Below are positions 20,960 to 47,890 of a DNA stretch of 64,000 nucleotides, piece by piece. The notes under the pieces were generated by a model, which ran no database searches, had not been told where the DNA came from, and saw only the letters and a list, made by a program, of their open reading frames with translations. Source of the DNA: Geothrix terrae. Lineage in GTDB: Bacteria > Acidobacteriota > Holophagae > Holophagales > Holophagaceae. The stretch spans positions 39,751 to 103,750 of the forward strand of contig NZ_JAKZLA010000007.1 of the NCBI RefSeq assembly GCF_022808775.1. The letters run 5' to 3'. Numbering within the stretch: position 1 is the stretch's first letter; each line of letters opens with the position of its first letter. Both the position numbers and the translations under genes were made by a program.

Positions 20960-21218
20960 CACGCGATGGTCCCGCGCGGCTCCCAGCCCCGTGCGGAGTT
21001 CCAGCCGGGGCGAGGCTCCACCTCCGCGAGCCCAAAGGGCGAGTGGGAGCCAGGCCCTGCGTGGCGTCAGGTGGAGGCGCGCAGCGCAACCCTAGGTCCC
21101 CGCAACGCGTGCGTTGCGAGGGGGGCCCCTGGAGGGCTGCCAGCCGAGGCAAGGTCCCCTTGCCTTGGCGCGGGGGTCCCGGGGTGTTCGCGAAGCGAGG
21201 AACCCCGGGAGAGCATCA
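20960..21218 (-). repeat. Stop-codon repeat, tandem short plus long copy, after ppk
   Basis: Read on the minus strand, the ppk TGA (21218-21216) begins TGATGCTCTCCCGGGG. Stem 1 is 21202-21210 with 21176-21184; hairpin 2 is 21157-21163 with 21147-21153. A second, longer unit follows with an inner palindrome CGCAACGC/GCGTTGCG (21101-21118) and a 75-bp module at 21012-21088 also found near 29.2 and 32.4 kb. This fills almost the whole 300-base gap before apbC. It probably also ends transcription. Confidence 0.75.
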
Positions 21219-26704: not shown

Positions 26705-26967
26705 AGCGCCGCGCCGATGCCAAGAAGGGCAAGCCCAAGAAGAAGAAGGCCTTTGGGGGACGACGCGCCAAGTTCTGCAAGTTCTGCGTCGAGAAGAGCA
26801 CCCTCATCGACTACAAGGACGTGAAGACCCTCCAGGCCTTCACCCCCGAGCGCGGCAAGGTGCTGCCCCGCCGCACCAGCGGCGTGTGCGCCGTCCACCA
26901 GCGCGCCCTCGTGGAAGCCATCAAGCGCGCTCGCAACATCGCGCTGCTCCCCTTCGCCACGGACTAG
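26701..26967 (+). CDS. rpsR: 30S ribosomal protein S18
   Basis: 88 residues: a Lys/Arg-rich N-terminus, [16 protein letters not shown] with two cysteines, [22 protein letters not shown] and the conserved ending [13 protein letters not shown]. It follows rpsF with an ATGA overlap. rplI, the usual next gene, is absent. Degenerate copies of the 3' end of this gene occur at 27032-27106 and 29267-29385. Confidence 0.95.
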
Positions 26968-27031: not shown

Positions 27032-27106
27032 AAGCCTCCCCCGGAGCCTCCTCCGCGACCCGCATCGTCCCTCGCATCGCGCTGCTGCCGTTCGCCTCGG
27101 ATTAGG
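27032..27106. repeat. Direct repeat 1 containing rpsR 3'-end copy
   Basis: 75 bases that match 29311-29385 (offset 2279) with about three differences. Its last 35 bases (CGCATCGCGCTGCTGCCGTT and so on to GGATTAG) are a diverged copy of the rpsR end, including the stop. The two copies bracket the sulfatase-fold gene. The 88 bases from 27107 to 27194 hold no recognisable feature. Confidence 0.85.
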
Positions 27107-27277: not shown

Positions 27278-28897
27278 TCAAGGGAGGTCCGGCACCCCCG
27301 GCTGGGGCATGAACACACGTTTATCCTTGTCGATGATCAGGTAGGAAATGGGCTTGCCGAACAATCCCATGGGCGAGCCGTAGAAGGCCCGGTGCCTGGA
27401 GGCGTCTTCGGGGCTGGGCACCGACCAGAGCGTCGCCATCCCGGGCATCCGCTGGCCCAGGAGATTCCGGATGGATTCACTTATCAGAGCGTGCGACGCA
27501 TGGTCCTGCCAGCCTGGATCGATGCCCTGGAGCCTGCCTGCCAGGTCAGGGCTGGAAAGCACGATCACGGGGACAGTCCACTCGGAAATGCCGCATTCCC
27601 CGGGCAGATTCCCGTGGGGAGCCTTGGCCTGGAAATTTTGCCCATGGTCGCTGGTATAGAACACCAGGGTACCCTCCGGAAGCCGCCCGGCCACGCCCTG
27701 TAGGAACGCCAGCGAGGCCCGGGAGATCGCGATGGAATAGGGGTTCGGGGCCCCGGCCAGCTCAGGCGGAAGGCTATGCGCATAGGGGAAGTGGGTCCCG
27801 ACCTTGTTGATGAGGGTGAACGTCCGCTCCGCCTTCCCCAGCTGGCCGATCAGCGCGGGGATGGCATTGAGATCCCGTTCCGTTCGCACACCCAACGCCC
27901 CGGACGGCAGGACTTCGTCGATGAAGGACTTCTCGAGGTCATCGAAGTAGTCCTGGATGGCCAGGTCGTTCAACACACCCTGGCAATCGATGTAGGCAGT
28001 TCGGAAACCAGCCTCCTTCGCCATCTGGAAAAGGCTGGGGAAGTGGCGAAGGGATGTTCCCGGATCTTTCGGATCAGCGCCCCGCCTGAGCATCAGGTTC
28101 GACGCGGCGCTGGAATTGGCGAAGCTGTACCCCAGACCGAGATTGCGGAGGTTCGGCAGGTGGGCCCGATCGACCAGGTCCCGGAACGCGCCCCCTTCCA
28201 CCGATTCGTCGATGACGAGAACGAGGTGCCGCACCATGGGGTCAATGGGAACGTGCTGGAACGCCGCCGCAGCTTTCCCGTCCTGTACCCATCGGCGGGC
28301 CGCGGCGTCCACGGCCAGAGTTCCGGCGTGCAGCCCCGCCTGGAACTGCATGGGAAACCCATTCAAAGCCGTGTCTCCACCGATGGCCAGGATCGCCACG
28401 TACATGACGACCGCGGTCAGGCTGGCGGTGATCATGGGGATGCTGTTCCTGGCCCGCAGGGCGACGCGGATCCAGATAAGCAGGACCAGCACCCCCAGGA
28501 TCTGCAGCACCACGATGAGGATGGGTGCCGTGAATTGGGATAGCGCATCTCCCGTGTTCCCGACCGATTCCAAGAGGGTCTTCCCGTCGACCAGGGTCAG
28601 GGGCCGCCCCCTGATCCTGAAGAAGGAGGTGCCGACCAGAAAATTGAGAGAGAAGAAAAGCCCCCCCAGGATCGCCCACCGGCGACGGGCGAGCCCGCAA
28701 CCCACCAGCGCCAAGACTGCGGCCAGGATTTCCACCAGGTAGATCACCTGTTTCAGCGGGTGCCCCAAGGTGGCCATCCGGTGGGGGATCTGGGGATTCA
28801 TCCACAGCGATAGCGCCACCAGCAGCGCGCACGCGACCAGCACCTGCGCTCGTCGGGTCAACTTGAGAGGTCTGGGCAGGATCGATTCCGTGACCAC
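27278..28897 (-). CDS. Membrane sulfatase-fold phosphotransferase (EptA/LtaS-like)
   Basis: 539 residues. Four or five transmembrane segments occupy about residues 15-175, followed by a periplasmic alkaline-phosphatase-like domain: VLVIDESVEGG (metal-binding Asp/Glu), SSAASNLMLRRG at the nucleophile region (Ser where Thr is usual), NKVGTHFPY and FYTSDHGQ (Asp-His ligands). It likely transfers phosphoethanolamine or phosphoglycerol to an envelope glycan or lipid. Starts with GTG 28897 after GGAG. Base composition looks lower in G+C than the neighbours. It is enclosed by rpsR-tail direct repeats, suggesting insertion. Confidence 0.8.
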   Translation of the reverse strand: MVTESILPRPLKLTRRAQVLVACALLVALSLWMNPQIPHRMATLGHPLKQVIYLVEILAAVLALVGCGLARRRWAILGGLFFSLNFLVGTSFFRIRGRPLTLVDGKTLLESVGNTGDALSQFTAPILIVVLQILGVLVLLIWIRVALRARNSIPMITASLTAVVMYVAILAIGGDTALNGFPMQFQAGLHAGTLAVDAAARRWVQDGKAAAAFQHVPIDPMVRHLVLVIDESVEGGAFRDLVDRAHLPNLRNLGLGYSFANSSAASNLMLRRGADPKDPGTSLRHFPSLFQMAKEAGFRTAYIDCQGVLNDLAIQDYFDDLEKSFIDEVLPSGALGVRTERDLNAIPALIGQLGKAERTFTLINKVGTHFPYAHSLPPELAGAPNPYSIAISRASLAFLQGVAGRLPEGTLVFYTSDHGQNFQAKAPHGNLPGECGISEWTVPVIVLSSPDLAGRLQGIDPGWQDHASHALISESIRNLLGQRMPGMATLWSVPSPEDASRHRAFYGSPMGLFGKPISYLIIDKDKRVFMPQPGVPDLP

Positions 28898-29197: not shown

Positions 29198-29266
29198 GCC
29201 TCCATCTGACGGGCGCCCCTCCGGGTGCGCCCTCCCACTCGCTCCGCTCGTGGAGACGGAGCCTCC
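29198..29266. repeat. Long-form repeat module, 29.2-kb copy
   Basis: CGCCTCCATCTGACG at 29198-29212, then CTCCCACTCGC and a GGAGACGGAGCCTCC ending. The same order of blocks occurs on the minus strand at 21088-21012 and 32489-32426 within stop-codon repeats. It directly precedes an rpsR-tail copy. Confidence 0.7.
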
Positions 29267-29385
29267 ATGGAAGCCATCAAGCGCGCACTCCGGACGGCGG
29301 AGCCCCGCTCCGAAGGCTCCCCCGGAGCCTCCTCCGCGACCCGCATCGTCCCTCGCATCGCGCTGCCGCCGTTCGCCACGGATTA
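29267..29385. repeat. Direct repeat 2 containing split rpsR 3'-end copy
   Basis: ATGGAAGCCATCAAGCGC (29267-29284) matches rpsR 26911-26928 in 17 of 18 bases; after a 40-odd-base interruption, 29350-29385 matches the rpsR end through its stop. Positions 29311-29385 are the partner of 27032-27106. The reading frame is not kept across the interruption, so it is not a functional S18 tail. Confidence 0.8.
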
Positions 29386-29402
29386 GGTTCGTTTTTGATC
29401 CT

Positions 29403-34932: not shown

Positions 34933-35433
34933 ATGACCGACGACAAGTCCGTTCCACGGCTCCCCATGCCCCTCCGCCGCCAGAAGGCCGTCCAGGCCGC
35001 ATGGAAGCCGCTGCTGTTCCAGTGGCTGGTGCCGGGGGCGGGCTACTGGATGATCGGCGAGAAGGGCCGGGCCAAGGTGTTCTTTGGTGTCTGGGTCCTC
35101 TTCTGCCTCCTTGGCGCCCTGCAGATGCAGCACGGCGCGGTGGCGGGAGTGAAGGGCGGCGTCTTCGTGCCCCAGGCCGGGGCCTGGCTGCCCACCCTGG
35201 GCGCCTTCGCCACCGCGGGCATCGGACCGGTGTACGGCGTGTTCGCCTGGGCCTTCGGCGGCGCGGGCACTGAGCCCGTGCGCACACTCACCCAGGAGTA
35301 CGGGGCCACTTACGTGATGGTCGCCGGCCTCCTCAACTGGCTCTGCTGCTTCGACCTCTGGGACCGCATCACCGGGCGCTGGGTCTTCCGCCTGCCCAAG
35401 GACGAGCAGGAGAAGATCGCCAAGGGCGAGTAG
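34933..35433 (+). CDS. Small membrane protein, DUF6677/TM2-like
   Basis: 166 residues. LFQWLVPGAGYWMIGEKGRAKVFFGVWVLFCLLGALQ is the TM2/DUF6677-like motif of a hydrophobic turn with Pro-Gly-X-Gly. About four transmembrane helices in all, ending in a charged tail (RLPKDEQEKIAKGE). It diverges from the sensor kinase. No function is assigned. Its last 115 bases are duplicated 250 bases downstream. Confidence 0.75.
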   Translation: MTDDKSVPRLPMPLRRQKAVQAAWKPLLFQWLVPGAGYWMIGEKGRAKVFFGVWVLFCLLGALQMQHGAVAGVKGGVFVPQAGAWLPTLGAFATAGIGPVYGVFAWAFGGAGTEPVRTLTQEYGATYVMVAGLLNWLCCFDLWDRITGRWVFRLPKDEQEKIAKGE

Positions 35434-35568
35434 CCATCACGCCCTCCGGGCCGCCGCTGGGCGCGCCTTCGGCTGCGCACGCGGCTCTGGCTGCCCGCGA
35501 TCGGACGTGCCACTGGCACGTCCTCCCACTCACGGGGCCTGCCGCCCCATTCGCGGAGCGGGGCCCCC
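35434..35568. repeat. GC-rich palindromic insert between tail copies
   Basis: Contains GGACGTGCC-ACT-GGCACGTCC (35503-35523) and CCTCCCACTCACGGGG, which resembles the CTCCCACTCGC block of the long repeat module. It separates the genuine gene end from its duplicate. Confidence 0.6.
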
Positions 35569-35687
35569 GGTCGCCGGCCTCCTCAACCGGCTCTGCTGCT
35601 TCGACCTCTGGGACCGCATCACCGGGCGCTGGATCTTCCGCCTGCCCAAGGACGAGCAGGAGAAGATCGCCAAGGGCGAGTAGCTAT
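35569..35687 (+). pseudogene. Duplicate of the 3' end of the 34.9-kb membrane gene
   Basis: Matches 35319-35437 at an offset of exactly 250 bases, including the TAG stop, with two clear substitutions within the coding part (AACTGG/AACCGG and GGGTCTT/GGATCTT). It has no start. The remaining gap to 35714 has GATCGGTGATCGGTGATCAG, a short tandem. Confidence 0.9.
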
Positions 35688-35714
35688 CGGCTGTCGGTGA
35701 TCGGTGATCGGTGA

Positions 35715-37908: not shown

Positions 37909-38837
37909 AGCGCATCCTCACCGCCCTGTCCGTCAGCCTCCTCCTCGCGGGGCTGGGATTGGGCTGCCGCAAGCCGAAGACCGCCAGCCAGGCGACCCTC
38001 AGCTCCACCGTCCTGATGGCCGAGGCGGACAAGCAGATGAAGCAGGGCAAGTTCAACGAGGCCCGGACGACCCTCCGCCAGCTGGAGCAGTACCTTCCGG
38101 GCTCTCCCGAATTCCCCAAGGCCAAGCTCATGCTGGGCGACAGTTTCTTCTTCCAGTCGAACCCCAGCTTTCCCGAAGCAGAAGTGGAGTACACCAGCTT
38201 CCTGAACTACTTCCCCCGCCACGAACTCCGGGACTACGCCCTGTACCACCGGGCCCTGTGCCACTTCTCGTCCATCGAGAGCGCCGAGCGCGACCAGACC
38301 GAGACCCGCAAGGCGCTCGACGGGTTCCAGCAGCTGCTGACGGAATCCCCGGGCAGCCCCTATGCCCCCGAAGCCAGGTCCAAGGTGGTCCAGTGCTGGC
38401 GGCGCATCGCCGAGCACGAGCTGATCGTGGGCATCTTCTACGTGAACGTCTACTACTACCCCGGGGCCGAGCGGCGCCTGAAGGCCCTGCTGGAGACCTA
38501 TCCCGACTACGTGGACCGCGAGCGGGCCTACTTCTACCTCGGCGAGGCCCTGCGCCAGCGGCTGCTGCTTCCCGAGGAGCTGAACCAGTTCGAGAAGGAC
38601 TACGCCAAGAAGCTCCAGAAGGAAGATCTGAAGGAACTCACCCGGGAGCAGGGCATGCAGTACCAGAAGGACTTCACCACCTTCACCACCGAGCGCATCA
38701 AGGGTTTCCGCGACGAGGCCAGGAGCTACTACCAGAAGCTGGTGGAGAGCTACCCCGGCTCCGAGTGGGCCCGCCGCGCGGCGGACCGGCTGGTGACCAT
38801 GGGCACCGATGGCGTGAAGGAAGATCTGGATAGTTGA
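37905..38837 (+). CDS. bamD: BamD-like outer-membrane assembly lipoprotein
   Basis: 310 residues. LLLAGLGLGC is a lipobox. The mature protein is built of TPR-like helical repeats (MAEADKQMKQGKFNEARTTLRQLEQYLPGS, PEAEVEYTSFLNYFPRH, EARSYYQKLVESYPGSEWARRA), the YfiO/BamD arrangement. It would be a BAM-complex component anchored in the outer membrane. Longer than E. coli BamD (245 residues). Its TGA is the beginning of a repeat element. Confidence 0.85.
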   Translation: MKRILTALSVSLLLAGLGLGCRKPKTASQATLSSTVLMAEADKQMKQGKFNEARTTLRQLEQYLPGSPEFPKAKLMLGDSFFFQSNPSFPEAEVEYTSFLNYFPRHELRDYALYHRALCHFSSIESAERDQTETRKALDGFQQLLTESPGSPYAPEARSKVVQCWRRIAEHELIVGIFYVNVYYYPGAERRLKALLETYPDYVDRERAYFYLGEALRQRLLLPEELNQFEKDYAKKLQKEDLKELTREQGMQYQKDFTTFTTERIKGFRDEARSYYQKLVESYPGSEWARRAADRLVTMGTDGVKEDLDS

Positions 38838-38890
38838 TGTCGTCCGGGGGTTCCGCGCTTCGCTTCGCTGCGCGCACACCCCCGGACCAA
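38835..38890 (+). repeat. Stop-codon repeat, short form, after bamD
   Basis: TGATGTCGTCCGGGGGT starts at the bamD stop. TCCGGGGGT (38843-38851) pairs with ACCCCCGGA (38878-38886), enclosing a CGC/GCG-rich loop. The second hairpin seen in other copies is not obvious here. Confidence 0.78.
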
Positions 38891-45301: not shown

Positions 45302-45409
45302 TGCTCTCCGGGGGTCCCCCCAGCCACGCATGCGTGGCCGGGGTCTAAGGTCGCGCTGCGCGCACACCCCCGGGGCCCCCGCGCAAAGCCCGGCACAGCC
45401 GGGCTTTGC
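45299..45409 (+). repeat. Stop-codon repeat, intermediate form, after beta-barrel gene 2
   Basis: Begins TGATGCTCTCCGGGGGT at the stop. Inner palindrome GCCACGC/GCGTGGC (45323-45338), stem partner ACCCCCGG near 45366-45373, then a second hairpin GCAAAGCCCGGC-ACA-GCCGGGCTTTGC (45383-45409). Confidence 0.82.
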
Positions 45410-47121: not shown

Positions 47122-47433
47122 ATGTTCGCAATCATCAAGACCGGCGGGAAGCAGTACCGCGTCGCCGAGGGCGATATCCTCCGCGTGGAGCTGCTGGAGA
47201 AGGATCCCAAGCAGGCCGTGACCTTCGAGGATGTGCTCCTCATCGACAAGGACGGCGACCTGAAGGTGGGCCAGCCCACCGTGAAGGGCGCCAAGGTCGA
47301 GGCCGAGGTCATCACCCACGACCGTGCCAAGAAGGTGATCATCTTCAAGAAGAAGCGCACCACCACCTATCAGCGCACCCAGGGCCACCGTCAGGGGTAC
47401 ACCGAGGTCCGCATCAAGGCCATCAAGGGATGA
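47122..47433 (+). CDS. rplU: 50S ribosomal protein L21
   Basis: 103 residues: MFAIIKTGGKQYRVAEGD, VLLIDKDGDLKVGQPTVKGAKV, and RTTTYQRTQGHRQGYTEVRIKAI. It heads the rplU-rpmA-obg cluster. ATG 47122 is the standard start. The TGA begins a repeat element that separates it from rpmA. Confidence 0.95.
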   Translation: MFAIIKTGGKQYRVAEGDILRVELLEKDPKQAVTFEDVLLIDKDGDLKVGQPTVKGAKVEAEVITHDRAKKVIIFKKKRTTTYQRTQGHRQGYTEVRIKAIKG

Positions 47434-47495
47434 TGCTCTCCGGGGGTCCCGCGCTGCGCGCACACCCCCGGACCCCCGATGCACGCACGGGCCAA
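47431..47495 (+). repeat. Stop-codon repeat, short form, after rplU
   Basis: TGATGCTCTCCGGGGGT from the stop codon, CGCGCTGCGCGCACACCCCCGG follows closely, then GGGC-CAA-GCCC as a weak second hairpin. Confidence 0.8.
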
Positions 47496-47552
47496 GCCCG
47501 CACTCGCATCCTTCCCTCCATCCACGAATCCTGATTCTGAAGAGGTATTCCC

Positions 47553-47813
47553 ATGGCTCACAAAAAAGGCGTCGGTTCCAGCCGCAATGGTCGTGATTCC
47601 CATTCCCAGCGCCTGGGCGTGAAGGAGTTCGGTGGCGAGGTCGTCACCGGCGGCTCCATCCTGGTCCGCCAGCGCGGCACCAAGTTCAAGGCCGGCATCA
47701 ATGTCGGCATGGGCAAGGACCACACCCTCTTTGCCAAGATCGACGGCAAGGTGCGCTTCCAGGACAAGGGCCAGTCCGGCCGCTTCATCCACATCGATCC
47801 CATCGAGGGTTGA
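47553..47813 (+). CDS. rpmA: 50S ribosomal protein L27
   Basis: 86 residues: [28 protein letters not shown], then [12 protein letters not shown] and [16 protein letters not shown]. Begins directly with MAHKKG, without the cleavable N-terminal extension known in Firmicutes L27. The stop is part of a repeat element. Confidence 0.95.
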
Positions 47814-47890
47814 TGTTGTCCGGGGGTTCCGCGCTGCGCGCACACCCCCGGGCCCCCGTTCACAGGCCGGGCGGAGCCCGGCCTGTGAAC
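47811..47890 (+). repeat. Stop-codon repeat, short form, after rpmA
   Basis: TGATGTTGTCCGGGGGT starts at the stop; ACCCCCGG at 47844-47851 pairs back with it. The second hairpin is a perfect 15-bp stem, 47858-47872 with 47876-47890, loop GGA. Confidence 0.85.

Follow-up and report, generated by a model that had tools for sequence, protein, structure and literature searches.

Some integrative elements rebuild the 3′-end of their target gene, as do phage e14 in icd and the islands found in tRNA genes. Group I and group II introns, and retroelements that move by TPRT, employ a guide that pairs across the insertion point and have a precise 3′ junction together with a variable 5′ side. A different form of guidance is found in the insertion sequences IS608 and ISDra2, in which bases located 5′ of a hairpin foot act as the guide by pairing with those that immediately precede the cleavage site; in IS200/IS605 elements insertion takes place 3′ of the paired bases and the target is reprogrammable (PMC5934647). 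REPs are sequences of 20–40 bp, which in the two large super-families carry a GTAG or CGTC tag (PMC3733652), and IS1549 and IS1634 are flanked by long duplications of variable length, from 8 to 514 bp (PMC2266710).

The locus described here lies in a window of 64,000 nucleotides (the whole stretch of DNA analysed) from Geothrix terrae. The end of a gene encoding a membrane protein is present twice, and between the two copies is a member of a dispersed, non-coding family, which we refer to as E. The features of the locus are the following:

34933–35433, + strand: host gene, intact, encoding a membrane protein of 166 aa, TAG stop; orthologues occur in most genomes of the genus
35313–35320, + strand: target CGTGAT|GG; the duplicated segment begins between 35318 and 35319 (site x)
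35319–35438, + strand: T1, the first gene-end copy, functional, holding the stop codon
35434–35441, + strand: guide CCATCACG, the reverse complement of CGTGATGG, directly 3′ of the stop codon
35453–35485, + strand: HP1, an optional hairpin of E
35487–35568, + strand: core of E, a three-way junction
35487–35498 with 35558–35568, + strand: P1 of the core
about 35503–35523, + strand: P2 of the core
about 35523–35557, + strand: P3 of the core
at the end of 35487–35568, + strand: constant border of E, its 3′-end GGGGCCCCC
35569–35688, + strand: T2, the second gene-end copy, flush with the 3′-end of E

The recurrence of the gene end stands as originally predicted, although its length is 120 nt rather than the 115 first given, and the spacing between the copies is exactly the 250 bases claimed. 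T1 and T2 are identical at 117 of 120 positions (97.5%), a match whose BLAST E value of about 1e-52 excludes chance; of the three differences two are in the coding part, as had been noticed, and one is past the stop. The intervening 130 nt (35439–35568) are indeed palindromic. The insert had, however, been thought related to another repeat module of the window, and here the claim fails: it does not match the CCGGGGGT-type module (38836, 45300, 47430 and 47815) and belongs to a family of its own. The window holds a second palindromic family, CCGGGGGTYCCGCGCTGCGCGCACACCCCCGG, located directly behind stop codons and unrelated in sequence to E, with copies at 38836–38888, 45303–45393, 47431–47500, 47810–47880 and 21077–21218.

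A search with the window insert returned about ten clear copies of E in the host genome (3.43 Mb), and a covariance model built from 11 copies detected the family in 39 of 41 congeners. Among 93 genomes of the class searched with this model E is present in 53, all of them within the host's own family, where it spans seven genera; it was not found in the other two families of the class. Flanks and fold were analyzed in 133 copies. The copies, of about 80–130 bp, share a strongly covarying three-way junction (P1–P2–P3): 93.8% of cells are paired in an alignment of 118 distinct rows, whereas shuffles reach 74% and slid structures no more than 59%, and in 24 of 29 pairs both partners have changed. 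Wobble is rare overall, with 78 cells of A-C mismatch and 32 of G-U; the excess of the former is as expected if the folded RNA were the minus strand. Identity is about 89% between species at one locus and about 72% between loci, and at the latter level no recent jump from one locus to another was seen. E is not a known RNA as judged by Rfam, in which it has no match up to an E value of 5. A weak match in the window at 21012–21123 (minus strand) has no flanking copy.

In 117 of the 133 copies the 3′-end is flush with a copy of the upstream sequence (score of at least 25). Controls typically score 16 or less, with three high values in 126 (37, 57 and 116) that are likely tandem copies. Shorter flush copies, down to 8–11 bases, are found in nearly all the remainder, and a solitary E is very rare (about 2/133). 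The duplicated part (T) measures 27–240 bp; its start, x, typically lies within a gene and its end at the terminus of that gene, which may be the stop or the start codon. The original prediction, which spoke of duplicated 3′-ends, is thus correct for those and needs extending to 5′-ends, the terminus being in each case the one nearest the 5′ side of E. Its suggestion that a repeat-like insert followed by a gene-end copy is a general pattern is borne out at more than 25 loci in the genus and in other genera of the family.

The arrangement has a polarity. Read in the orientation of E, T1 is crossed by a clear coding frame, which ends there, in about 22 of 26 loci; in none does one cross T2. Wherever coding is clear the intact gene lies on the 5′ side of E, never on the other, and T2 is therefore always a displaced or redundant copy behind the 3′-end. 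A simple target-site duplication fails on this polarity.

At each place inspected in the host genome E is bracketed by direct repeats of the adjoining sequence, including the end of prfA, a YebC-like gene and a RidA-like gene that has three units in tandem (names assigned by eye from translated ends); arrays comprise one to three units. The survey for gene-tail duplications and repeat enrichment that had been proposed was run on 845 kb of this genome and returned E-type inserts in most gene-end duplications. With repeats of repetitive genes set aside, an E-type insert accompanies about six duplications, gene-end or intergenic, outside the window (contig and position C7:52563, C7:101227, C7:146516, C7:288197, C1:305960 and C1:325497), and other palindromic modules are found at a few (C1:261253, C7:104298 and C7:154688). 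Two further arrangements in the host genome (G000) deserve mention. At C1:261200–261500 a gene tail and the other palindromic module form a tandem unit (a 131 bp repeat with a period of 96), and this second module may thus also travel with gene tails. At C7:104260–104700 a duplication of 166 bp with a period of 198 lies beside a tRNA-like stretch; its palindromic insert is unmatched by the E model.

A second example in the window, at rpsR, had also been put forward:

26913–26967, + strand: functional copy of the rpsR tail, with related tail copies near 27067–27106 and 29266–29387
29202–29259, + strand: fragment of E (24.8 bits, E 0.17, a weak match by itself), with copies of the rpsR tail behind it

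A fragment of E followed by copies of the rpsR tail is indeed present; the case is consistent with the family, in a region too rearranged to prove more. Between 26913 and 29387 tail copies are nested, with a stretch of 2.2 kb between them that includes a sulfatase-like gene (27278–28897, minus strand).

One element escaped the earlier account of the insert: a guide with complementarity to the point at which the duplication begins. It is found at several loci just 5′ of the E fold – either immediately before the three-way junction or, where that hairpin is present, before HP1 – and is the complement of the bases from about −5 to +2 around x. The site itself has a motif of its own, with A or T at −1 in 23 of 30 cases and T at +3 in 19 of 30, and pairing typically spans −5 to +2 and stops at this conserved T. 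At locus 8, 22 of 25 bases just 5′ of the junction are complementary to x. In a fixed window the true x stands out from about 330 other positions per locus (Fisher p 1.2e-6), a test that missed the HP1 loci because the guide there lies 5′ of HP1. When the leader was widened to take in that stretch, complementarity at x in 26 loci gave Fisher p values from 1e-6 to 1e-10, depending on the window; a direct-orientation control on the same loci was null. The mean complementarity profile has a sharp peak at x and is again at baseline within about 12 bases. The 6-mer from −4 to +2 is matched in 10 of the 26 loci (15 when any copy counts), whereas at 185 other offsets the number of matching loci averages 0.63 and never exceeds 3. 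In about half of the loci no guide is detected.

At the window locus the guide is exact in G000, G006, G015 and G030 and one base shorter in G034. In a further species, G060, the duplication begins further on, at GAA|GGACG, and the leader carries CGTCCTTC instead, which fits its own site better than the old one (8 versus 5; for G000, 8 versus 6). Clear tracking of species-specific target changes is confined to loci 7 and 8, and co-variation of guide and target between species, own versus cross, is not significant over 20 loci (p 0.15).

Empty sites in relatives, which the original prediction had advised looking for, are common: 24 of 31 species are empty at the window locus and seven are occupied, and in several empty species the stop codon runs almost straight into the end of prfB. 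The occupied species are scattered over the tree, requiring seven changes, no fewer than with shuffled labels (many forks of the tree being open); G025 is empty though close to both G000 and G006. Six of the seven occupied species share the same start x. At loci 0, 3, 4 and 5 the start differs in some species and T2 is again flush with E. Within a genome T1 and T2 are more alike (0.960) than are the T1 copies of different species (0.888), from which it follows that the copies are homogenised or remade. The copy is fresh, as had been said, only as far as its sequence goes: at several orthologous sites both junctions are common to species with coding DNA that differs by 10–17%, so the copy has been kept identical or remade. 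Distances between E sequences correlate weakly with those between hosts, a result that neither proves nor excludes horizontal homing. Up to three types of E are nested at a single gene end at locus 12, where one E lies inside a T2 copy with no new duplication and a loss of about three bases.

Searches for an enzyme gave the following. Reverse transcriptase (PF00078) is not found in G000 and is absent from 28 of 41 genomes (present in 13), and Y1 HUH transposase (PF01797) is absent from G000 and 36 of 41 congeners (present in 5). In the host's own genome searches for IS4-type DDE transposase (DDE_Tnp_1, PF01609), TnpB (PF07282) and IS110 (PF01548) returned nothing. With all five absent from this genome, we reject the view of E as the remnant of a resident insertion sequence or retroelement. 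A diversity-generating retroelement (DGR), with a variable gene tail and its template, is likewise rejected: differences between T1 and T2 show no adenine bias and the reverse transcriptase is absent here.

How does E compare with the systems described above? As in IS200/IS605 elements the guide lies 5′ of a fold and is complementary to the bases −5 to −1 before the junction, which is 3′ of the paired bases. Unlike those elements, pairing continues past the junction to +1 and +2; a copied gene end separates the left border from the fold; E has no coding part; the Y1 transposase is absent from its host genome; and, whereas IS200/IS605 insertion occurs without target duplication, E comes with one, locus 12 being the exception. 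In the way it would work E is reminiscent of an IS608-type end, without necessarily being one. Like REPs and their RAYTs, E is a dispersed intergenic palindrome with a tag 5′ of a hairpin; it differs in its length (about 80–130 bp), a guide specific to the locus in place of a fixed tetranucleotide, flanking duplications and the lack of a RAYT. Long and variable direct repeats are shared with IS1549 and IS1634, but these are autonomous DDE elements for which neither polarity nor guide is known. In common with e14 and the tRNA-gene islands, a replacement gene end arrives with the insert and the original one comes to lie on its far side, yet E, about 120–310 bp in all, has neither integrase nor genes, and its host genes are unrelated, each with its own copied end. 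E also recalls group I and II introns and TPRT in having a guide that spans the point of insertion, an exact 3′ border and a 5′ side that varies, although it has no catalytic intron core or Rfam match and its host genome no reverse transcriptase. No known kind tested has all the features of E, and no earlier description was found in the literature searched, where coverage is thin. Our confidence is high as regards the anatomy of E and moderate as regards its mechanism.

The reading that we favor, at a probability of roughly 45% and with no candidate enzyme found in the host genome, is guide-directed insertion of E with duplication of the gene end. E would be a small non-coding mobile or homing-like unit that recognises x, in a gene near its terminus, by pairing of the guide with about −5 to +2. 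The fixed 3′-end of E would be joined to the base after x, and its 5′-end would come after a copy of the gene running from x to the terminus. With the copied end on the 5′ side the gene would stay intact (T1) and the displaced original end would lie behind E (T2). Pairing of guide and T1 around x would bring the base before x beside the E–T2 junction; joining the two would excise T1 and E and restore the empty site. The guide may direct the joining, and the reaction may act on single-stranded DNA or via RNA. Recombination between T copies could remove E, change the number of units in an array and keep T1 and T2 alike. The constant 3′-end, complementarity centred on x, the shift in G060, the motif at x and the polarity all argue for guided insertion, as do empty sites, scattered occupancy, arrays, the likeness of T1 to T2 and the E at locus 12. 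Against it stand the failure to find an enzyme in this genome, the lack of a recent jump, the failure to detect a guide in about half of the loci and the co-variation of guide and target, which is clear only at loci 7 and 8. More tentatively, E may be a homing element of about 100–300 bp with a built-in guide, which supplies a replacement gene end, either carried along or newly made, and depends on an as yet unrecognised enzyme; the replacement end would render insertion into essential genes harmless and permit reinvasion of the same site after precise loss.

The main rival requires no dedicated enzyme, in keeping with a host genome in which no transposase was found. E would be an old palindromic repeat at gene ends where the host's own replication or repair switches template: at the fold the new strand would leave at the 3′-end of E and restart upstream at x, producing T2 as a direct copy, while folding back would also copy the x region in inverted form, producing the ‘guide’. 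The age of E and its attachment to its loci fit this account, as do the truncated second E sometimes seen after T2 (G000 C9 and C7:288k; G027), the shift of the copy start between species and the very few wobble pairs, the fold perhaps being kept at the level of DNA. But the solitary E should be the starting state, and it is the form that is nearly missing; moreover, the base motif at x is left unexplained, and so is the register of the inverted copy around x, which is constant and ends at +2. On balance we regard template switching as rather unlikely.

Less probable by far is that E and T2 together constitute a selected functional module at gene ends, for example an RNA regulator or a recombination switch, in which T2 must match T1. 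Such selection would account for the continued likeness of T1 and T2 and for the conservation of E and its loop sequences between species, about as good as that of coding DNA. It sits poorly with a patchy distribution in which close relatives lack E with no other change seen (G025 beside G000 and G006), and with host genes that are unrelated and invaded alike at 3′- and 5′-ends. The reading of E as an ordinary MITE with long variable target-site duplications of the kind reported for IS1549 and IS1634 (8–514 bp; PMC2266710), followed by gene conversion between the copies, agrees with the clean empty sites in relatives and is nonetheless improbable and already disfavored, because a symmetric duplication predicts intact genes about equally on either side, a guide is not predicted, and the IS4-type DDE transposase (PF01609) is absent from the host genome.

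If guide-directed insertion is true, base pairing could bring a non-coding unit of about 130 bases to selected positions within essential genes, insertion and repair of the gene being a single step; the mechanism would be a new one, as would the enzyme, and both would interest those working on guided DNA insertion. Should template switching be the answer, the loci would still preserve an exceptionally clear trace, left by nature, of structure-driven switching, with the direct and the inverted copies in fixed register. Dozens of related species offer both empty and filled sites on which the system can be tested, and the pattern, should the favored reading hold, points to an undescribed form of guide-directed DNA insertion that leaves the gene unbroken.
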